From positions 1-64,000 of the IMG/VR virus record IMGVR_UViG_3300020034_000007: a DNA stretch of 64,000 nt. One strand, written 5' to 3'. This document shows positions 29,952-61,153 of the stretch, piece after piece (within the stretch, counting starts at the first letter, position 1; every line of letters starts with the position of its first letter). A program made the position numbers and the translations under genes. The notes beneath the pieces were generated by a model, which ran no database searches, was not told the origin of the DNA, and was given only the letters and a program-made list of their open reading frames with translations. The DNA is from a virus.

Positions 29952-31274
29952 TTACTTCTTAGCCGCAGCTGCAGCTTCGAGGCGCACCATATCCTGATAG
30001 GACTTGGTCTTGGCCAGATTCTCCTCGCTCATGTTCTGCAGGCGGTGAGTATTAACGATCGCCTTAGCAATAGCGAGCTCGTCGTTCACCTTCTGTACAT
30101 CAGTGTTAGCCGGGTCAGTCGGCGCTCCGGTATCCTGGACGCCATGTCCGGCAACAAGTGAAACAGGAACTGCAGAATCATACGAGGCCTTGAAATTGGC
30201 AAACTGCTCATCCGACAACGAGAGCGCTAGCTGCGTCAGGGGATCTACCTGAGTAGCCACGATCTTGGGATGGTCACCCTTGGCCAGTTCTTCCACGAAA
30301 GTCTTACGACCGGTCTCAAGCTGCTCCTTCTTGAAGGTAGCAAGGACTCGGTTGTTCGATTCGAGCTGTGTAATGTGCGCCTGAACCTCGGCCGCATCCG
30401 TCGTCGCCTTACCGCTCAAAGTGAAGGCAACAGACTGAGCCGCAACAGACTGCGGCACGACTGGCTGAGGAAGAACAGGCGGGGCAGCCGGAGTAGGCGG
30501 CTGCACGGGCGCAGGCTGAGTGTTGTTCGGTGCAGTCACACCAGGCTCCTTTGAGGTATTGAAAATTCTTGGTGCTGGGGCATCCTGGCGACCCGCATGT
30601 GCATAAATGCTAAGGTCCCAGTTATTCTTCGCTTGCTTACTATCCTTCTTTTTCTGAGGCTTGATTGTCTCGTCTGCAAGCCCTGCAGCAACAGCCTCCG
30701 CACCTGTATACCAGGTTTCGTCGGACATTGCCTGCTTCCAGTCATCAATCGAACCACCAGCAACATTATGATAAACCTCAGCAATATTTTGATCCATCTT
30801 GTCAAGGTCATCAGCAAACGTTCGCATCTCGTTAGCATTGCCAAGTACAATCCCAGATGCGTTGTGAATCATCATCTGGGATGACTCTTCCATCGAGACC
30901 TTATCGCCCGCCATAGCAACAATTGATGCGGCCGAGGCTGCAAGGGCGTCAACAATGACATGTACATAGGCATCATGCTGACGCAAGGCATTCTTCATAG
31001 CGATACCATCAAAGGCGGCACCACCAGGAGAGTTAAGATGAAGCTCGATAGTGTCATCATCAATCTCCTGAAGCTGATCGATGAATGACTGAGCAGTCGT
31101 CCCTTCGCCCCAGAAGTTACCACCGATACGGTCGTAAATATAGACCTGGGCAACGGTCCCGCCATTGTTTTCCTGGCGAGCATTCTTGACGACTCGATAC
31201 CAGTCCGGCACATCCTGCTGCTGCAGGTTAGCCATCCGCCTGATTCGCTCTTGCGGGTCTCGAAGTCCAGTCAT
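29952..31274 (-). CDS. ClpP-like prohead protease with scaffold-like C-terminus
   Basis: 440 residues. Residues ~40-205 form a ClpP/S14 serine protease: ELHLNSPGGAAFDG oxyanion region, catalytic Ser114 in LAASAAS, His137 in MMIHNAS, and an acidic residue near GLADE (D201). The rest is Ala/Pro/Gln-rich followed by helical sequence (VQAHITQLESNNRVLATFKK) and resembles a scaffold fused to the protease. This is a known arrangement in which the protease removes its own scaffold during maturation. Start could be 31274 or an in-frame ATG at 31235; neither has a strong site. Confidence 0.85.
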   Translation of the reverse strand: MTGLRDPQERIRRMANLQQQDVPDWYRVVKNARQENNGGTVAQVYIYDRIGGNFWGEGTTAQSFIDQLQEIDDDTIELHLNSPGGAAFDGIAMKNALRQHDAYVHVIVDALAASAASIVAMAGDKVSMEESSQMMIHNASGIVLGNANEMRTFADDLDKMDQNIAEVYHNVAGGSIDDWKQAMSDETWYTGAEAVAAGLADETIKPQKKKDSKQAKNNWDLSIYAHAGRQDAPAPRIFNTSKEPGVTAPNNTQPAPVQPPTPAAPPVLPQPVVPQSVAAQSVAFTLSGKATTDAAEVQAHITQLESNNRVLATFKKEQLETGRKTFVEELAKGDHPKIVATQVDPLTQLALSLSDEQFANFKASYDSAVPVSLVAGHGVQDTGAPTDPANTDVQKVNDELAIAKAIVNTHRLQNMSEENLAKTKSYQDMVRLEAAAAAKK

Positions 31275-31321: not shown

Positions 31322-31597
31322 CTAGACGCCGGTTACGGTTCTGCCCAGAACAGACTCTGGAGTAGCATCTTCACGAAGGAACGCACCGCTCTGCTTGGTG
31401 AAAATAACTCTATGCCAGCGAAAACATTCTCGACAACGAATATGAATCTCGCCATCGTAATGCAAAGTCTCTCCGTAAATACGGTGCTGCTTGTATACCT
31501 TCACGTGGACATAAACGCGCCCTCGTTCGTCAATCCCATAGACTGCAAGCAATGGCTTGCGTGCACAGAAGCAACTCAATGGCTCCTTAGTGGCCAT
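31322..31597 (-). CDS. Small Com-like zinc-ribbon protein
   Basis: The ATG at 31597 overlaps the portal stop and gives 91 residues. CFC near the start and IRCRECFRWH at ~55 supply four cysteines in paired knuckles, like the Mu Com family and related small actinobacteriophage proteins between portal and protease genes. Function unknown; zinc-dependent RNA binding is possible by analogy with Com. Confidence 0.68.
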   Translation of the reverse strand: MATKEPLSCFCARKPLLAVYGIDERGRVYVHVKVYKQHRIYGETLHYDGEIHIRCRECFRWHRVIFTKQSGAFLREDATPESVLGRTVTGV

Positions 31598-33335
31598 TTT
31601 CCGCCTGCGCCATCTCGCCCTCAAGTATCTGCGAGAATCGCGCCTTAAACTCCTCAGCATTGGGAAGGTAGTCTGTACCTAGAGCTGTGACATCACGAGC
31701 CCATCCGTCCAACCGTGCGTAAAGCTGATTGGTACGCTGAGCTGCATTCACAATTCCCTGAGAAGCAAAGGCATCTTCCATGCGTCGCTTGAATCCAAAA
31801 TTAACTCTCATGTCAGGACCATATCGATCTTCACGATAGGCATTCTCTACCTGGCCATTGACGCGCTTGAGAATCTCATTGCGAATGTCGGTCATCTGCG
31901 CGTTGCTAGCCTTGCCGTTCTTTGACGGCGCTGGCACAGGCTTGGTGGGATCAGCATTTGGATCTGCGTTAGGGTCAGCATTTGGATCAGGCTGAGGAGC
32001 CAGCGTCTGCTGAACTTCACTAATCGTCAGTCCAGCCATCTCGCCTAGCTGCTCGGTATCGAATTTTATCTTATCCTTACCAATAAGCGCCTGTAGAATC
32101 ATCTGCAGCATCATAGCGTTAGCATTATCAAGCTTGTTGAACTTGATCCTTATCTTAGGTGGGTTAGCACCAGGGTAGTTAAACTTAGCCATCGGTGCCA
32201 GGATATACTTGTCGATGTACTGTGCGCGATCTGCATTCAATGCGTTCAACATCCACAGATACATCTGCATATGGCCGACGCCGAGGTTATAAGAACCAAC
32301 ATCAGCTGTTTTCATCAGCAGAACAGGAGTAAAGATGGCCAATGAAATCTCTTCATCCAGTCGCTGCATATAGCGCTCGAAATCTGCGCCACGCATCTGT
32401 GCTTCCAAATATTGCATGTCGTAATCAAAGTACCCACGGCCTGCACTATCCTGCTCACGGTCAGCAGGAAGAACCACGACAGAACGATTTCGCAGCTGCA
32501 TAAGCTGAGCCAGCATAAACTCCGAGGAGTTCATACTCGAACCGTCTGGCAAGTCTACAGTCTCACCGAAGGGTGCACGCCCTACCGGAGTCGGCTCGCC
32601 GAATCGCTCATAGTACCTGTTGGAATACAGATGCATAAGCATCGAGAAGAAGTAAGAAGTGTAAGCAGACTTGAGCAGCTTCTTGCCATAGTAATTTCCG
32701 TTCTCCATGAGAATAGAAAACCAGAACGAGTTCTCTGGCGGAATCGGGCGAGGCCAGCCGAACTGAATGATACCATCATACACTGGGATCTTCGGTGGAA
32801 CATTCCCAGGAGGCGCCCAACCGTCGACCTCTTTCCAATTAACCGCACAAGTCTCCGGAATGAGGTCCTTAATCTTCGTAAGGACCACAGCCCTGCCGTC
32901 GACGTCATTCTCCCACTGAAGTACATTCGGAGAATAGCCGGCCCAGTGCGCCTGTGACATTGCGCGATTCAGCTGGGTCCAGATATTTTCAAGCTGCTCA
33001 GTACAGAGGTCACGAAGCTTCTTGTTATCACACTCAATCGTCCAGTTGGACTGATGTAGCATAAAACTCAGAACCGCCAGGGATGAATTCACCTGGTAGT
33101 GCTGGGTCATCGTGCGGTAATCCGCAAGGGTGAGCTTCTCTAAATCGAACTGAACAATGCCGCCGCCGGGCAGCTGCAGGAAGTGATTGTACCTCTCTCG
33201 ACCACTCCAGTTACCGAACTTTTCACCAAGCTTCGGTGGAGCTGTCTTGACGTTCTGTATAGGATTACCATGATGGTCAAGAAGAGGCACGATTGCTCCT
33301 GTCAGTTCGGAGATGACTCGGGAAGTTAACGCCAA
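31587..33335 (-). CDS. Portal protein (Mu gp29/DUF935-like)
   Basis: 582 residues between terminase and head protease. Recognisable portal segments are VNSSLAVLSFMLHQSNWTIE, AHWAGYSPNVLQWE, a wing region with PENSFWFSILMENGNYYGKKLL, and AIFTPVLLMKT. A short PDPNADPNADPNADP tandem repeat (~465-480) precedes a helical tail that may contact the scaffold. It forms the dodecameric DNA channel. The TTG start at 33335 has GAGAGG two bases upstream and overlaps the terminase end by about 59 bp, so a slightly later start is possible. Confidence 0.8.
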   Translation of the reverse strand: MALTSRVISELTGAIVPLLDHHGNPIQNVKTAPPKLGEKFGNWSGRERYNHFLQLPGGGIVQFDLEKLTLADYRTMTQHYQVNSSLAVLSFMLHQSNWTIECDNKKLRDLCTEQLENIWTQLNRAMSQAHWAGYSPNVLQWENDVDGRAVVLTKIKDLIPETCAVNWKEVDGWAPPGNVPPKIPVYDGIIQFGWPRPIPPENSFWFSILMENGNYYGKKLLKSAYTSYFFSMLMHLYSNRYYERFGEPTPVGRAPFGETVDLPDGSSMNSSEFMLAQLMQLRNRSVVVLPADREQDSAGRGYFDYDMQYLEAQMRGADFERYMQRLDEEISLAIFTPVLLMKTADVGSYNLGVGHMQMYLWMLNALNADRAQYIDKYILAPMAKFNYPGANPPKIRIKFNKLDNANAMMLQMILQALIGKDKIKFDTEQLGEMAGLTISEVQQTLAPQPDPNADPNADPNADPTKPVPAPSKNGKASNAQMTDIRNEILKRVNGQVENAYREDRYGPDMRVNFGFKRRMEDAFASQGIVNAAQRTNQLYARLDGWARDVTALGTDYLPNAEEFKARFSQILEGEMAQAENGH

Positions 33336-36198
33336 ACCTCTCGCCCGCTGACTGCGCTGGAGCCTTCAGTCCACCACTGCCAGCCTTGCGTACCTGTGCG
33401 ATTAGCTCTGCGAAACCTTCGCTGACACCTTCGGTATGCTGACTAGTATCACGTCCTCCGTACCCGGAGTCCAGTGATGACCGCAACCCACGCCGGTATG
33501 AACGATCTCCAATCAAGTTAGAAACAACACCTGCTAATGCATCCGCTACGTCCTTTGATCCCTTAAGTGGATGATCTACCTTGCGACCATCAGTAGAAAG
33601 TTCCATCAACTCCTTGATGACGATCTTGACAGCTGTATCATCACCCTTGTTAATAAACGTCATATACGGAGGAAACTCTAAACGCTCCTCATAGATTGCA
33701 TCACGCAAATCCTCGTAAGCAATCATGTTCTTGTCTACAGATAGATCATCTACCCAGAACTTCTTCTTGCGAAGTTGTTGCTTTGTATCCTGCGACTGGA
33801 AACCATCCATCGATATCTTCTTGAGACGGAATCCAAACTCATCACGAAGTCTATAAATGACACGTCGCACATCACCAAAGAAGATTTCCGTACCCGGCAT
33901 TGCTTTCAGTCTACCGAGGAAATCGATAACAATGAGTGGCTTTAGCTCACCATCAACCTCTGTCAATTCAGCAACGTGACCCATGACAATTCCCAGCGCA
34001 TCCCCTTCGGAAGAATACGCATAGTCGATATGCATATTGCGCTTGCGTGGATCATCGTGCCCACGGAACCAATCTTCGAATTCCAACACCGAGGGATTAA
34101 TGCCTACCGGAGAAACCTCACCGTGTCGCTCTATCCATCGTTCCTCGCATAGCTCGATCTTGTCCACCAGTGAAATGAACGGATCACTCACCGCTGGTGG
34201 AATACCAGCTAGGTCACGCAGTGCCTTCTCTGGATTATTTTCAAAACTCTTCTGAAACATTGTCGGAATCTCCAACAGTGTCTCAATTTTACCGGGCGCC
34301 AACATTGCCCCAACCATCTTAGGGATAATCTGACGACGCTTGAAATCGTAATAGAATGAATTACGAGTACCATCATCTGCTGTATAACGCGCCCACCCCA
34401 ACGACTCCCACAGAGTCATACGGCAAGTATAAGCATTCGGATCGGTAGTAAATTCAGCAAACTTCTTGGACGCAAATCCATTGGCCTTCTTCATCTGACC
34501 AATACAAATCAGCAATCCTCTATCTTCGAACCGCGAGAAAATCCTTCCATGGATCGTGTCGTAGCCTACCTCAGCATAATCCTTATCCTTTGTTTGCTTG
34601 TGAGAATCCATCTCGTCTAGAATCCCACCAAGGATGTTATAACCTTCGAACGTTGTTTCAGATGAGTCACCAGGAAGAATCCAAATATCCTTCTGGGGAA
34701 ATCGAATCTGCTTAGTGAACTTCTCGTCATATGGAGCATTCTCAATAAACCAAACAGAGTGCTTAATACGAGCGAAAATGTCACCGAAGATAACTTCACG
34801 AGCATTTGTCTCGGATGTCGACATCTGCATGAATGCAATACGTGACCCAGGAAGCAGGCTGAAGTAATCCTGCGGATCATTCAAGCAGAGCACCCAGTGC
34901 ACCATATAAGGAATAGCGATCGAAGCTAAAGTCGTATTATGCGTAACTATAAAGTCTTTGGTCACATAGAGCTGATCTAATGCATCTACCTTAATACAGC
35001 GACCTGGGCCACGGTCAATCTTTTCAACCTTAACTATCGATCTCGCTGGTCGCTGATTAGTTCTAGGACTCCAATTAGCGACTTTGCGAGGTAGACTAAA
35101 GGGGCACTCCTGATCCATATTCAGATGGACCTGATACTCCATAACTCCTCTACGGTCGAACTTCGTTACAGTGCAATACCCACCGAGAGAACGAACTAAC
35201 TCTGCTACATCATCAGCAAGTTGTCTAGAACTTGTAGAGTACACTTGAGTATTTTTGCCGAAAGCCGATCCGTCATTATCCATCAAACCACGTAGCAATT
35301 CCCAGCGATCCTGAATAGAAGCGCGCAAATAAATCTCGGGTATAAACTTCTCGCAAGAAGATTTACCATATAATTCCAGTGCCTCTAGCGTATTCAGAAT
35401 TGGGTTAGAATTCAACCTTCGCAGAGTGCCGTCAGCCTTTATCGTAAACTTCAGATACCCTCCATCTGTTAAATGAACAGCATTTTTTCTTAGGAGTTCT
35501 TCAAGTCTATCAGCATTCCATCTATCCTGCGTGCTAAACGAAATACTTCTCCGTGTCATTCCACCATTAGCCAACAAGGCACCTAGAGCCCAAGGATGAA
35601 TTGGAAGTTCACCCTGATACTCATATTCTACAGGAAGTACAATTGGAATTCGATACTTGTAGTTACTACCGGCAAACTGAAGTTGTTGTCGACTTAAGTA
35701 CTCCGTGGTTACAACTTGAGACTTAAACTGCCCGTATGAACTCTTGTAACTGACTTTCCAAAGATGATCGGCACCTGCGTCTACCCAAGTACCATCCTTA
35801 AAGGAGAGTCTGTAATATTGAATATCTTCGTTATCAAAAACACCAAGAACTTGTGTTGCCTTTCCATCGCTTCCTATTACAGAATCACCAACTCTGAGTG
35901 CTCGATTTTCTACCCACCCGGTCGGTGTTAAGATTAATTCTTCCGGACGCAAATTCTTGCCGATACCAATAGCACCCGTAAAGATAGCACGCTGTACCTG
36001 AGCAATACGATAAGTACTTACATCCTTGCCGAAGATTTCAACGAGAGCCTGTCGCACGCCAGGTCGAATCTTGGACGCAATATCCAGGTAACCTACACCG
36101 AGAAACTCTTCGATGGTCGCCGGCCGTTGCCAAAACTCGGGATGATCCTTGAGCCACTGAAGCTCGTAGGCAGTTCTGACTGGATCAAACTCGGTCAT
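33277..36198 (-). CDS. Terminase large subunit, interrupted by an intein in Walker A
   Basis: 973 residues before splicing, 633 after. The N-extein ends in GAIGIGK (75-81) and the C-extein starts TTLASIAIPY (422-), rebuilding a GxxxxGKT ATP-binding loop. Walker B is GGILDEMD. Later blocks (HIDYAYSSEGDALG, VIDFLGRLKA, KISMDGFQSQDTKQQL) fit the RNase H-like nuclease. The spliced protein packages DNA at the portal using ATP and cuts concatemers. ATG 36198 has GGAG upstream and overlaps the previous stop. Activity depends on removal of the intein because the insertion splits the P-loop. Confidence 0.9.
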   Translation of the reverse strand: MTEFDPVRTAYELQWLKDHPEFWQRPATIEEFLGVGYLDIASKIRPGVRQALVEIFGKDVSTYRIAQVQRAIFTGAIGIGKNLRPEELILTPTGWVENRALRVGDSVIGSDGKATQVLGVFDNEDIQYYRLSFKDGTWVDAGADHLWKVSYKSSYGQFKSQVVTTEYLSRQQLQFAGSNYKYRIPIVLPVEYEYQGELPIHPWALGALLANGGMTRRSISFSTQDRWNADRLEELLRKNAVHLTDGGYLKFTIKADGTLRRLNSNPILNTLEALELYGKSSCEKFIPEIYLRASIQDRWELLRGLMDNDGSAFGKNTQVYSTSSRQLADDVAELVRSLGGYCTVTKFDRRGVMEYQVHLNMDQECPFSLPRKVANWSPRTNQRPARSIVKVEKIDRGPGRCIKVDALDQLYVTKDFIVTHNTTLASIAIPYMVHWVLCLNDPQDYFSLLPGSRIAFMQMSTSETNAREVIFGDIFARIKHSVWFIENAPYDEKFTKQIRFPQKDIWILPGDSSETTFEGYNILGGILDEMDSHKQTKDKDYAEVGYDTIHGRIFSRFEDRGLLICIGQMKKANGFASKKFAEFTTDPNAYTCRMTLWESLGWARYTADDGTRNSFYYDFKRRQIIPKMVGAMLAPGKIETLLEIPTMFQKSFENNPEKALRDLAGIPPAVSDPFISLVDKIELCEERWIERHGEVSPVGINPSVLEFEDWFRGHDDPRKRNMHIDYAYSSEGDALGIVMGHVAELTEVDGELKPLIVIDFLGRLKAMPGTEIFFGDVRRVIYRLRDEFGFRLKKISMDGFQSQDTKQQLRKKKFWVDDLSVDKNMIAYEDLRDAIYEERLEFPPYMTFINKGDDTAVKIVIKELMELSTDGRKVDHPLKGSKDVADALAGVVSNLIGDRSYRRGLRSSLDSGYGGRDTSQHTEGVSEGFAELIAQVRKAGSGGLKAPAQSAGERFGVNFPSHLRTDRSNRASS
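34936..35955 (-). mobile_element. Intein with LAGLIDADG-type endonuclease, class 3-like
   Basis: Residues 82-421 (340 aa) of the terminase. Splicing blocks: block A-like LRPEELILTPTGW, block B ending ADHLW (W147), block F starting RCIKVD (C401), block G VTHN (T419, H420, N421) with Thr422 as +1 residue. Position 1 is Asn82 rather than Cys, Ser or Ala. Trp in block B, Cys in block F and Thr before His-Asn are the WCT set that defines class 3 inteins. The endonuclease shows two dodecapeptides, WALGALLANGG (~203-213) and LLRGLMDNDG (~301-310); the first has Asn where the catalytic Asp is expected. Confidence 0.85.
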
Positions 36199-36837: not shown

Positions 36838-38286
36838 CTAGAAAGGCAGGTTGGGCATCGGTACCACGTTGGGCGGACTTTGCCTGCTGGTGGTATCGAC
36901 ACTGCTGATAACAGTTCCTTCGACTTCTCTCGGTTGAGCCCCACCACGAGTCAGAATCCCTTCAATCATCTGCGGAGAAATTTCATCCCGCTTGTAGCCC
37001 TGTTGTTCCAACTCGCGAATCGCGGCGGCGACAATCTGACGTGGATCACCAAAGGCAATCGAAGCATTACCGCCTGAACCAACATTAACCTGAACCTTCG
37101 GCGACCGAAGAGTCGGATCAATCAGCTTCGCCAGGTGTTCACCCTGATCAGAAATGGTCTTAGCAATACGAGTCACTTCAGGATCAAGACCCATATACTC
37201 TTCCATCTCCAGTCCCTTTTCTAGCCGATTAGACTGGATCTGTACTACCGCAGCCAGGCCATCGATAATCGAATCGACATCACGAGTACGAAAGTAGGAT
37301 GAAAGTTCCTTCGGCTCAGACTTAGGCACAGTACATACCGACCCTTCGCGATAGAACTTACAGACTACATTAAATGAACAGGAATTGCAAACGTACTTAT
37401 CTCCCGGCTTGGGGTCTAGCTTAATCTTACTCTTAGAATTCCTCATAAACAGATTTAAAGATTCTTCAGGTTCGTAATTCGCATCTGGTGTACTACTGTC
37501 AACAGTACTAGATTTAAAGGATAACTTGATATCCTTGTTAAAGTATTGAGACCCCCACCGAGCTGCACGGATATTAAACATACATCGATTGCGAGGATCC
37601 ATAAGATCGACTGGCTTGAATCCCATAAGGCGAATCCACTCACGGTATGGCTCTACGTTCTGCTTTGTTGGATTCAGCAACTTTCCAGTAGGAAGATGAA
37701 TCTCACCCATCGCAGCACGATTCCTGGCCTCCCAATCAAAGGCCTTGAATCCAATACGATTAAGAAGCACCCACCCTGATGGTCCATGGATGTGCAAAAT
37801 AGCTTCTGGGTATTCATCCTGAAGCTCCTTGCAGAACCTCAAAAACATCTTACCTGGACCCATCTTAAGATCAGGAAAGTTCATCACAATAACTCTATGT
37901 TCCTGACCATAAACTGGACGCTCCAAGACGTCAGTCTCATCGTCTGCGCAAAGTTCAAGATCTTTACCAACATCGTTAGCCATATAGCTTTCAAGTACAG
38001 CCTCATCCTCGCCATATTGCCAGGTTGGATAAACTGCAATGGGATCATGCTGTGTAGGACTGTACTCAGCTGTACCCTGTGTTCCACAGACCATAAGTCT
38101 ATAAGGAACAGTAGAGCCGCCGAAATAAAGGTTAGCCCATCCCTGAACATCTTTAATCTTCTTGCGGACAATCCAGCCGTAATCAAAGATTACATTTCGC
38201 TCGTTACACTCTAAGAGTTCTTTGATATAATTGGACGGATTCCGCCACCAGAGTTCGCTAGTCACGTAAGCCACCGTAACCGCCAT
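36838..38286 (-). CDS. First gene of the late operon: conserved protein with Cys cluster
   Basis: The ATG at 38286 (482 aa) is preferred to an in-frame TTG 15 bp earlier; neither has a clear ribosome site. The N-terminal ~220 residues mix strands and helices (VMNFPDLKMGPGKMFLRFCK, LHIHGPSGWVLLNR). A knuckle CNSCSFNVVCKFYREGSVC lies at ~299-317. The C-terminal ~130 residues look disordered or helical. Position before the terminase would suit a small-terminase-like or packaging regulator, but this is only context. A large hairpin lies 15 bp upstream of the start. Confidence 0.55.
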   Translation of the reverse strand: MAVTVAYVTSELWWRNPSNYIKELLECNERNVIFDYGWIVRKKIKDVQGWANLYFGGSTVPYRLMVCGTQGTAEYSPTQHDPIAVYPTWQYGEDEAVLESYMANDVGKDLELCADDETDVLERPVYGQEHRVIVMNFPDLKMGPGKMFLRFCKELQDEYPEAILHIHGPSGWVLLNRIGFKAFDWEARNRAAMGEIHLPTGKLLNPTKQNVEPYREWIRLMGFKPVDLMDPRNRCMFNIRAARWGSQYFNKDIKLSFKSSTVDSSTPDANYEPEESLNLFMRNSKSKIKLDPKPGDKYVCNSCSFNVVCKFYREGSVCTVPKSEPKELSSYFRTRDVDSIIDGLAAVVQIQSNRLEKGLEMEEYMGLDPEVTRIAKTISDQGEHLAKLIDPTLRSPKVQVNVGSGGNASIAFGDPRQIVAAAIRELEQQGYKRDEISPQMIEGILTRGGAQPREVEGTVISSVDTTSRQSPPNVVPMPNLPF

Positions 38287-38300
38287 ATGGACTAGAAGCA

Positions 38301-38353
38301 AAGTATTGCCCGGTAAAAAATCCGCGACGCTCGGACCTTACCGGGCAATACTT
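38301..38353. terminator. 16-bp perfect hairpin just upstream of the late operon
   Basis: AAGTATTGCCCGGTAA (38301-38316) pairs with TTACCGGGCAATACTT (38338-38353), 21-nt loop. In the - strand transcript it ends 15 nt before the first start codon, so it may be a leader attenuator, an insulator against antisense transcription, or an operator. Confidence 0.6.
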
Positions 38354-56996: not shown

Positions 56997-58580
56997 GTGG
57001 AGACCACCGAGAAGAAGTCTTGTGCGAATTGCCCCTCGCGCCTGACTGCTGTTCAGACCGTACGATTCTTCGGCAAGACGATCGGGGCAGATATGTGTGC
57101 CCAGTTTGGTACCGTCTTGTCACGGCCAGGGTTGAACCGTAAGGCGCTCGATGGACTCCAAGAGCGTATCGCCCGCGACTGTAATAGTTATGGTCAGCCT
57201 GCCCCGACACTAGTAGCTCACACCAAGGCCTTTGTTCCCAAGGTAGCCGAGCCCAGTGATGCCTACCCACCTTCCATTCAGGGTGACGGTACCCCCGGTG
57301 ATATTCGTGTACGTGCTTGTACTCAGTGCAAGTGGTTTCTCACGCAGGAGAAGGTTGGCGAGAAATTCGGTTGGCAGTCTGGTCTATGTCAGGCTAAGGG
57401 CCAACTCGTCATGCCCCACCTCACTGCCGAGACAGCACGCGGCTGTCAGCTGTCAACGCTGGGATCACCATCTGATCTTCACGTAGACCTTATCGACTTC
57501 TATACGCCTGACTACTACCACGTAGACATCTTCAAGAGCTACGGCGCTGGTGTTGATCATCCCCTGACCTACGTTACTGATGTTCCCGTGTCAGAAGAGG
57601 ATACCGCCGAGGGTATCATGGCCTGGCGACGCATCGAAGATCCCAAGTCATCTAAGTTTGTCATGCTGCCGATCTACGAGCCCAGCCAGTTCAACGAGGC
57701 CGACAAGGGCAAGATCCCTCAGCCTGGCGATGACGAGCACCCTGAACTCTATCTGGATTACGGTAACAACGTGTACAAGGTGGCCGTTCTCTGGCGCGCA
57801 CTCGACGAAACTCCCATGGCGTTCGGTCCGGCAGGAGTAGGTAAGACTGAATTAGCCCGCCACATGGCTTATTTGATGCAACTACCGTTCGAGCGGTTCA
57901 GCATCACAGAGTCAACCGAGGTTGACGACCTCATCGGCTACACTCGATACACACCCGAGAAGGGTACCTTCTTTCAGCGCGGTCGCTTGCCCCTCGCTTG
58001 GGAACGCAAGTGCGTCATGCTCATTGACGAACCAAACACAGGACAGCCTGCAGTTTGGCAGGCACTCAGGCCACTGACAGATAATAGCAAGCAGTTAGTG
58101 CTAGATAGTTCCTCCGGGGAAAGGGTTGAGCGGTCTAGTCATACCTACCTGATGATGGCTGCTAACCCTGCCTGGGATCCTCGTAACGTTGGAGCCAATC
58201 AGATTGGGGATGCTGATAGCTCGCGACTGATGCATATTAGATTCAGTCTACCACCAGAGCTTCTCGAGAAGAAGATCATCGCCGCTCGAGTGGCACTGGA
58301 TAACGATAGCTACAAACCGCCACTCGATCAGATCATGGCGGTTGCTCGCGAATTGCGAGCACTGTCAGAACAAGGTACACTGCCGATCTCGTGGGGTATT
58401 CGTGTCCAGATCAAGGTTGCACGTGCCATGGCTTGGTTCTCTCCGGTCCAGGCGTACAAGCTCGCAACCGATGACCTGGAGCCGAGTGTCCAGTCGACAG
58501 TGCTTGACTCAGTCAAGGGACACTTCGCCGACGATCGAGACGAGGATGATGATGACGACGTCAGAAAGCTTGACTACTAA
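56997..58580 (+). CDS. MoxR/CobS-type AAA+ ATPase with N-terminal Cys clusters
   Basis: 527 residues from GTG 56997. N-terminal cysteines (SCANC, later ACTQCKWF, GLCQAKG, RGCQ at 108-150) suggest a zinc or iron-sulphur domain. The AAA+ part has Walker A GPAGVGKTE (277-285), Walker B CVMLIDEPN (339-347), sensor-1 MMAANPAW and an acidic C-terminus (DDRDEDDDDDVRKLDY). This is the MoxR/CobS group, which works with VWA-domain partners to remodel or insert metals into proteins. The partner is encoded at 59030. Phage CobS-like genes are known; their substrate is not settled. Confidence 0.82.
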   Translation: METTEKKSCANCPSRLTAVQTVRFFGKTIGADMCAQFGTVLSRPGLNRKALDGLQERIARDCNSYGQPAPTLVAHTKAFVPKVAEPSDAYPPSIQGDGTPGDIRVRACTQCKWFLTQEKVGEKFGWQSGLCQAKGQLVMPHLTAETARGCQLSTLGSPSDLHVDLIDFYTPDYYHVDIFKSYGAGVDHPLTYVTDVPVSEEDTAEGIMAWRRIEDPKSSKFVMLPIYEPSQFNEADKGKIPQPGDDEHPELYLDYGNNVYKVAVLWRALDETPMAFGPAGVGKTELARHMAYLMQLPFERFSITESTEVDDLIGYTRYTPEKGTFFQRGRLPLAWERKCVMLIDEPNTGQPAVWQALRPLTDNSKQLVLDSSSGERVERSSHTYLMMAANPAWDPRNVGANQIGDADSSRLMHIRFSLPPELLEKKIIAARVALDNDSYKPPLDQIMAVARELRALSEQGTLPISWGIRVQIKVARAMAWFSPVQAYKLATDDLEPSVQSTVLDSVKGHFADDRDEDDDDDVRKLDY

Positions 58581-59029: not shown

Positions 59030-61153
59030 GTGAGTTTCGGCAGCAGAATCCCAAATGCGCCCAAGACAACGCTCGATGATCGGGCACGCAAAGCAGTGCG
59101 TAAGTTCTACACCATGCTGCCAACTCTCAATGCCTATGTCCGTACGATCAGTGGTAACCCAAAGGTATGTATCGAGGTCACTGCAGACAACGGAAGCTCG
59201 ACTCGTGATCGAATTTACTTCCGACCGCCGCTAGCCTTAGGTGACGATCTGGTTCACACTGAAATGCTATGTGACGAGCGTGATTCAGATGGCATTCAGA
59301 TGTGCGACGCATGCAGAACTCATGAGCACATCATGGCCGTCATGTATCACGAGATTGGTCACATCGCCTTTGGTACGCACTCCAAGCCAGCACTCAAGCA
59401 TGTCCAGGAGGTTCGCACCAAGGCTAATTGGTTCTCGCCCAAGGACTGGGATGACGTCAGAACGTACAATGAATTCAACAAACGCCTGAAGGCGTTACCT
59501 GACGCTGACCATTCGTACATGTTTCTTGCGAATGTGACACACCCTCACCTTGGCCTTTTGTACAACGCGACCGAGGACGCCCGTGTTAATGAAGCGGTGT
59601 TCAACGCGCGGCGTGGCGTGCGCGCCATGTACGACGCGCTAACGGCCGAAGTGGTCCGGGATGGTGTACCCAACCCAGATAACCCTGAAGAGTACACACA
59701 GTGGCGCGACATGTCTCTCGAGTTTCAGATGATGCTTGCAATCAGCTATCAGCTGCAGGGACAGAACGAGAAGTACTCAGGCCTGTTTGCTGAGAAGATC
59801 TATGAAGACCTGGAAAACGAAACACTTCAGAGGCACCTCGGGACATGGACAGCCGATACGTCAGCAATGGGTAACCTGAATTTCACTCTCGAGTTGATGA
59901 AGATTCTCAACGATATGGGTTACCTTATCAAGGACAACAAGGAGGAACCAGAAAATGACGGCGGAGATTCTTCCGGGGAAGACAGTCCTGGCGACGGGAA
60001 TGGTGAGCCATCATCAGGGAAAGGATCACCTCCCGTATCAGACTCTGAAGATGAAGGTGAGGATTCCGGGGGGAAGGATGGAGACGATCAACCTGACTCT
60101 TCTGGAGATCAGGACGCAGATGCTTCTTCTGACGGGGACGATAGCGATGATTCGCCGAGTCCCGGCTCACCTGAGGACAAAGCGCGACCAGGAGGCAATT
60201 TCGATAATGTCAAGGTCTGTGTCGCCGAACAGCTAGAGCCGGACATGAAGGATGCTGATCTTAACTCCGAAGATCCCGCTGAACGCAAAGAAGCCCAGCG
60301 CCTCATGAAGGCGATTGAGTCTGCAATCAGTCAGGTAATTCACTTCGAGAAGGCTTCAAGGCATATCTACGGTGTTGAATTCATCGAGCATGGTACTCAC
60401 TACTGGCCCGAAGATGAGACACAGACTCCTGAAGTTGACAGTGCTGCACTGAATCTTTCCATCCTACAGGCACGTGTAACGTTTGATAACAACAAGCGTA
60501 AGCGCAAGATGCCTAACCTTAAGGCTGGCAAGGTTACGCCTTCAACACTAGGCAAGCGTGCCGCGCTAGAGGATGATCGGCTATTCCACAAGACCATCAT
60601 TCCTGGTCGTCGAGATTACGATGTCGTCATAGGCATGGATATCTCAGGTTCAACAGCTGGTCGCAATATCGTCCTAGAGAAGAATGCAGTCTACGCTCAG
60701 GCAATGCTGCTAAGTAGACTGGGCATCACGTTCTCAATTTACGGTCACAGTGGATCATCTAACCTGATGATCTGGAAGATCAAGGAACGTCATGACCAGT
60801 GGGACACCAAGACCATGAAGCGCCTCATGGACGCGGACGCCTGTGCGGCAAACCTCGACGGCCATGCACTGGAATTTCTTCGTAAGCGTTCTAGTGAGGG
60901 TCAGGCTACAGATAAGATCATCATGTATTACTCTGACGGCGCAATGCCGATGGAGAATTACAAGGAAGAATTGGAGATTCTTCAGCGCGAGATTCGTACC
61001 TGTGCCCAGCAGAGGATTACCCTGGTAGGTGTAGGCATCCGGACAGACAGTCCTACGAAGCATGGACTGGATACCGTACGGGTCGATTCACCGGATGATC
61101 TTAAGTTGGTCCTGCTACACCTGAAGAAGTACCTACTCAAGAAGAGGGCATGA
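59030..61153 (+). CDS. VWA-domain protein with HExxH metallopeptidase-like motif (CobT-like)
   Basis: 707 residues from GTG 59030 (GGAGGA upstream). The N-terminal part has AVMYHEIGHIAFG (H107, E108, H111), the zinc-metallopeptidase motif. A very acidic low-complexity linker (~303-390, Asp/Ser/Gly/Glu) follows. The C-terminal VWA domain has a complete MIDAS: VVIGMDISGSTAG (D537-x-S539-x-S541) and YYSDGAMP. Layout and pairing with a MoxR/CobS ATPase resemble CobT. The pair probably remodels or unfolds a target, here perhaps proteolytically. Confidence 0.8.
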   Translation: MSFGSRIPNAPKTTLDDRARKAVRKFYTMLPTLNAYVRTISGNPKVCIEVTADNGSSTRDRIYFRPPLALGDDLVHTEMLCDERDSDGIQMCDACRTHEHIMAVMYHEIGHIAFGTHSKPALKHVQEVRTKANWFSPKDWDDVRTYNEFNKRLKALPDADHSYMFLANVTHPHLGLLYNATEDARVNEAVFNARRGVRAMYDALTAEVVRDGVPNPDNPEEYTQWRDMSLEFQMMLAISYQLQGQNEKYSGLFAEKIYEDLENETLQRHLGTWTADTSAMGNLNFTLELMKILNDMGYLIKDNKEEPENDGGDSSGEDSPGDGNGEPSSGKGSPPVSDSEDEGEDSGGKDGDDQPDSSGDQDADASSDGDDSDDSPSPGSPEDKARPGGNFDNVKVCVAEQLEPDMKDADLNSEDPAERKEAQRLMKAIESAISQVIHFEKASRHIYGVEFIEHGTHYWPEDETQTPEVDSAALNLSILQARVTFDNNKRKRKMPNLKAGKVTPSTLGKRAALEDDRLFHKTIIPGRRDYDVVIGMDISGSTAGRNIVLEKNAVYAQAMLLSRLGITFSIYGHSGSSNLMIWKIKERHDQWDTKTMKRLMDADACAANLDGHALEFLRKRSSEGQATDKIIMYYSDGAMPMENYKEELEILQREIRTCAQQRITLVGVGIRTDSPTKHGLDTVRVDSPDDLKLVLLHLKKYLLKKRA

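Follow-up and report, generated by a model that had tools for sequence, protein, structure and literature searches.

The window analyzed here, 64,000 nucleotides in length, comprises positions 1-64000 of the 80,908-base IMG/VR virus record IMGVR_UViG_3300020034_000007. Its terminase large-subunit (TerL) gene lies on the minus strand, and the Walker A motif of that gene is interrupted by an in-frame insert. The features of the locus are as follows:

33277-36198, minus strand: terminase large subunit precursor ORF, 973 aa (from extein matches and the phrog_2 match of the intein-free homologue L010)
35956-36198, minus strand: N-extein, 81 aa, ending in Walker A ...GAIGIGK
34936-35955, minus strand: intein, 340 aa, TerL residues N82-N421 (from the empty allele, PDB class 3 matches, and AlphaFold2/Foldseek)
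33277-34935, minus strand: C-extein, 552 aa, starting TTLASIA; Thr422 is the predicted +1 nucleophile
35953-35955, minus strand: Asn82, residue 1 (A:1), not a Ser/Thr/Cys nucleophile; in register with Ala1 of MchDnaB1
35758-35766, minus strand: block B, His145-Leu146-Trp147 (B:10 His, B:12 Trp)
35086-35625, minus strand: LAGLIDADG homing endonuclease domain, limits approximate (from Pfam and a PI-SceI profile match)
35560-35586, minus strand: block C, LGALLANGG; Asn (N130 of the intein) replaces the first catalytic Asp, at PI-SceI position 218
35266-35295, minus strand: block E, LRGLMDNDGS; the second LAGLIDADG motif, which retains its catalytic Asp
34996-34998, minus strand: Cys401 (F:4), predicted to act as the initiating nucleophile and as the first branch point
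34936-34944, minus strand: Thr419 (G:5 of W-C-T), His420 (G:6), and Asn421 (G:7)
36838-38301: terminase small subunit (TerS), neighbor
31587-33335: portal, neighbor
29952-31274: head maturation protease, neighbor

The original prediction had placed the intein in a phage packaging ATPase, and the host-gene evidence agrees. L010 matched phrog_2 (terminase large subunit) with an E-value of 3.6e-21, and the window gene sits between TerS and portal. The extein matched 370 phage records, the majority annotated as terminase large subunit, at identities of 53% or less; the hosts of these phages include Gordonia, Rhodococcus, and Streptomyces, among others. A terminase domain was not found in the Pfam search. 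With the full ORF as query, the PHROG "terminase" matches extend over the intein (residues 74-424) and are not independent evidence; they were therefore not accepted as identifying the host gene, and L010 was used instead.

Four PHROGs (phrog_19299, phrog_36964, phrog_15, and phrog_510) contain intein columns and may thus call a protein terminase or primase when it carries an intein but has another function. Elsewhere in the window, the plus-strand gene at 56997-58580 matched phrog_5424 (ATPase/porphyrin biosynthesis), and its neighbor at 59030-61153, also on the plus strand, matched phrog_5298 (cobalamin biosynthesis); the two form a CobS/CobT-like pair.

To establish the boundaries of the insert, same-family terminases were gathered from IMG/VR by a search with the C-extein, and 80 members were collected. 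The site is empty in 79 of them, with GxGK running straight into the C-extein; the sole occupied member (L174) lies on the same contig as the intein L102, described below. The C-extein of the closest empty allele, L010, is 70.8% identical to that of the window; L010 reads FTGAIGIGKTTLASIGLPYM without interruption, and its codons align on both sides of the insertion site. The insert consists of exactly 340 uninterrupted codons, in frame, with the flanks ...FTGAIGIGK(81) / N82...VTHN(421) / T422 TLASIAIPYM. Its removal restores GIGK/TT exactly and leaves exteins that are colinear with the intact protein. Walker A is split between GK and TT, as had been proposed, and Asn82, HLW (145-147), Cys401, VTHN (418-421), and Thr422 were all present at the positions assigned to them. 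Were the first residue to lie elsewhere, for instance with Asn82 belonging to the N-extein, the residue-1 claim would be an artefact. No point in favor of this arrangement was found, and its probability is negligible: the 79 empty homologues have GxGK and then the C-extein, without Asn, and the block A motif T-P-x-G-W begins at residue 10 in both the window intein and MchDnaB1 (T10-P11-x-G13-W14). Because the empty homologues read GxGK/TT and inclusion of Asn82 would give a P-loop of GKNTT, Asn82 was assigned to the intein as residue 1 and not to the extein. At the level of sequence, this assignment is fixed by the intein-free homologues, and the alignment with these terminases and with the MchDnaB1 register kept Asn82 in first place.

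Class 3 inteins are without a position-1 nucleophile and carry Trp at B:12, Cys at F:4, and Thr at G:5 (PMC5222942, PMC7891396); by 2020 their number stood at 1,701, of which 82.5% had LAGLIDADG motifs (PMC7891396). In the window intein, HINT blocks A, B, F, and G, a C-terminal His-Asn, and a Thr at +1 are all present, and the class 3 features are found as Asn82, His145, Trp147, Cys401, Thr419, and Thr422 (+1). Inteins of the W-C-T kind, that of the window among them, were aligned using MAFFT (206 sequences). All 206 have His at B:10, Cys at F:4, and Asn as the terminal residue, whereas Trp B:12 was kept in 202/206 and Thr G:5 in 199/206; Trp147, Cys401, and Thr419 are in register with this alignment and with 6rix and 6bs8. 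When the single sequence was used as the query, the top PDB matches were M. chimaera DnaB1 (6rix/6riy, 2e-8) and M. smegmatis DnaB1 (6bs8, 4e-7), and the next match after these class 3 DnaB inteins was gp41-1 engineered with W-C-T. A 65-sequence profile matched the PDB class 3 inteins at 1e-19 to 1e-22. The insert matched 764 phage records in tblastn; on the strength of these records and the PDB class 3 match at E=2e-8, chance was excluded. The AlphaFold2 model of the intein (pLDDT 91.9, pTM 0.92) has a HINT+LAGLIDADG fold; according to Foldseek, the resemblance to TliVMA and PI-SceI extends along the entire model, and that to MchDnaB1 along the splicing domain. In this model, the splicing domain is a split HINT domain with the LAGLIDADG endonuclease domain inserted.

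The intein had been proposed to belong to class 3 and to lack an N-terminal nucleophile; every sequence feature that could be tested agreed, the nearest solved relatives are class 3, and the comparison with intein alignments (the 206 inteins and the PDB class 3 chains) placed the class 3 residues in register. The W-C-T signature stood with one correction: the triplet is present in full, with Trp147 and Cys401, and its threonine is Thr419 (G:5, inside VTHN). Thr422, which the earlier wording may suggest, was rejected for this role; it is a separate, predicted +1 nucleophile, G:5 being Thr419 by the published definition (PMC5222942, PMC7891396). In having a residue 1 that is not Ser, Thr, or Cys, the intein also resembles those of class 2 (KlbA), and a class 2-like reaction was considered, with direct attack of Thr422 on the N-terminal scissile bond and no need for Cys401. 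The complete W-C-T triplet, the closest kinship to proven class 3 inteins, and the abolition of splicing by F:4 mutation in the class 3 inteins tested (PMC5222942) make such a route extremely unlikely. The locus very probably holds a class 3 intein of full length that includes a LAGLIDADG domain, separates the Lys from the Thr of Walker A in the large terminase of a phage, and removes itself by way of Cys401, Thr422, and Asn421.

The position, boundaries, residues, phylogeny, and patchy distribution of the class 3 intein were observed here, and its chemistry was modeled on that of class 3 inteins studied previously. By this analogy, the intein would keep the terminase ATPase blocked until self-excision, the P-loop of the precursor not being functional. 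The His145/Thr419 pair would activate Cys401 (F:4), which would attack the Lys81-Asn82 bond to yield a branched thioester. The acyl group would pass from Cys401 to Thr422 (+1), and cyclization of Asn421 would release the intein. An O-to-N shift would restore GAIGIGK-TTLASI, with the exteins joined as GAIGIGKTTLASI. Asn82 would be merely a permissive first residue with no nucleophilic role. Each of these steps has been established for other class 3 inteins (PMC5222942, PMC7664689), from which we infer splicing via Cys401, Thr422, and Asn421. Some terminase inteins have been demonstrated to splice and cleave (PMC5050341).

The identity of residue 1 was read by fixed spacing (the T10 register), as the residue-1 column of the MAFFT alignment was misaligned and was not used for counts. 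Among the 78 inteins found with the alignment query, residue 1 was A in 41, G in 7, S in 5, M in 4, F in 4, E in 3, D in 3, C in 3, V, L, and P in 2 each, Q in 1, and N in 1, the sole Asn being that of the window. Two further scans brought the set to 205 distinct inteins excluding the window; the sampling reached only contigs bearing inteins of the endonuclease type near three lead sequences. Their first residues included A (122), P (19), G (10), E (8), M (8), S (8), F (6), C (6), L (5), D (5), Q (4), V (2), and K (2); Asn1 occurred in none of the 205 sampled. The description of Asn as an unusual first residue was thus upheld, yet the position is permissive: as judged from these sequences, Asn1 is rare and not mechanistically remarkable, because position 1 of class 3 inteins varies widely. 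Position 1 can nonetheless matter, as A1G abolished splicing of AceL NrdHF (PMC7891396); given this and the absence of Asn1 from the 205 others, efficient splicing with Asn1 is not guaranteed.

Two further features of these inteins were noted. Some with the full W-C-T and Cys F:4 (L084, L094, L099, and others) begin with Cys or Ser (Cys1 in 6/205, Ser1 in 8/205) and therefore have two possible first nucleophiles. Cys at +1 was found in 5/205 W-C-T inteins (L005 and others); in the 2016 literature, a class 3 +1 Cys was known solely from Bvi IcmO (PMC5222942).

The closest known systems are inteins of phage terminases and of the DnaB helicase. The TerL intein of Gordonia phage Gmala1 (NC_028972) occupies the same P-loop Lys/Ser-or-Thr site, at the same codon junction, in a terminase of the same family; it is 46.5% identical to that of the window and has HKW, Cys F:4, and the block C Asn, but differs in having Gln1, Ser at G:5 (W-C-S), and Ser at +1. 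The TerL intein of IMG/VR contig 3300001097_001595 (L102/L174) is at the same junction, is 73.5% identical, and has the complete W-C-T and the block C Asn, but has Gln1, and its host terminase is only ~57% identical to that of the window. Both siblings at this TerL site therefore have Gln1. Kelley et al. 2016 (PMC5050341) defined the mycobacteriophage TerL1-a site as lying after the Lys and before the Thr of the P-loop; by this description it is the same site, but in a different terminase family; the TerL1-b site is one residue downstream. The sequence comparison with mycobacteriophage TerL1 inteins was made with the TerL1-b of Baka, which has W-C-T and a LAGLIDADG domain, is 34% identical to the window intein, and has Asp as residue 1 in fixed register. 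The DnaB-1 mini-inteins of M. chimaera and M. smegmatis (6rix, 6bs8) likewise feature a P-loop insertion, W-C-T, and a non-nucleophilic residue 1 in the same register, but have no endonuclease domain, carry Ala1 (MchDnaB1), and are hosted by the DnaB helicase. The intein type and the insertion hot spot are thus already known, and only Asn1 and the changed endonuclease residue are unusual; the known classification and mechanism of inteins are unchanged by this example.

In the endonuclease domain, Pfam LAGLIDADG_3 was matched at intein residues 220-258 (E=9e-7). An active enzyme has two LAGLIDADG motifs with both catalytic acids; here, the block C acid is Asn. Asp-to-Asn changes at a catalytic acid of LAGLIDADG enzymes usually abolish or cripple cutting. 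The same Asn was found in the window, L102, and Gmala1 inteins and in 9/206 inteins overall, and the block E Asp was kept in all. On these residues, the enzyme may have lost its activity, and the case for active homing is the weaker for it. Between the window and L102, the domain is 74% conserved, with pN 0.22 vs pS 0.80, and it is therefore not decaying freely. The block C Asn, the uniqueness of Asn1 in the sample, and the precedent of one class 3 intein that is a proven pseudogene (PMC3196547) could also be taken as signs of an intein that has decayed and lost splicing, leaving the phage or contig with a dead terminase. This reading is very unlikely, as the frame is open, the splicing residues are all kept, the rest of the terminase is intact, and pN is ~0.2 vs pS ~0.8 between the window and L102 in both the splicing and endonuclease parts.

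The distribution of the intein among terminases was also studied. Viral contigs gave no match when searched with the single sequence of the window intein, whereas the alignment query did; searches of genome contigs found no relatives. In a tree made up of W-C-T inteins only, the window, L102, and Gmala1 inteins formed one clade (SH-aLRT 99). In the C-extein tree, the three terminases that carry the intein are each paired with an empty sister; the starred branches force three changes. GordDuk1, GordTnk2, and GMA3, close relatives of Gmala1, are empty at the P-loop site and have other inteins near Walker B; the site is also empty in phage Jumbo. For the window and L102, dN is lower in the intein (0.24) than in the exteins (0.39), and synonymous sites are saturated in both, so the spread cannot be dated. 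The terminases that host the sibling inteins are only distantly related, and their own nearest relatives are empty; the intein is therefore sporadic in occurrence and probably mobile. The distribution is compatible with horizontal spread at a single site as well as with numerous losses, and it suggests movement between phages by homing or recombination. A more specific proposal is that a class 3 lineage dedicated to the TerL P-loop, splicing with an amide side chain at residue 1 (Asn/Gln), spread among distantly related phages with an endonuclease whose first catalytic Asp became fixed as Asn, moving by nicking or a non-canonical active site and not by a standard double-strand cut; we regard this as unlikely.

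The window adds an unstudied intein to a recurrent hot spot, the P-loop of phage terminases, where one intein lineage is scattered across distantly related terminases. Its Asn1 offers a natural test of the freedom of position 1 in class 3, which bears on the use of these inteins in protein engineering, and the conserved Asp-to-Asn change in the endonuclease raises the small question of how the lineage keeps moving.

The Walker B-region inteins look class 1 and occur at two places, that of GordTnk2 (L018) differing from that of GordDuk1 (L017) and GMA3 (L016). In RefSeq, the label "DarB-like antirestriction" (or "exonuclease") is attached to several terminases and helicases of phages in which a class 3 intein is present, among them NC_028972.1 gp02 (L002, Gmala1) and proteins of NC_028986, NC_054727, NC_048668, and others; this labelling is apparently a misannotation carried along with the intein.
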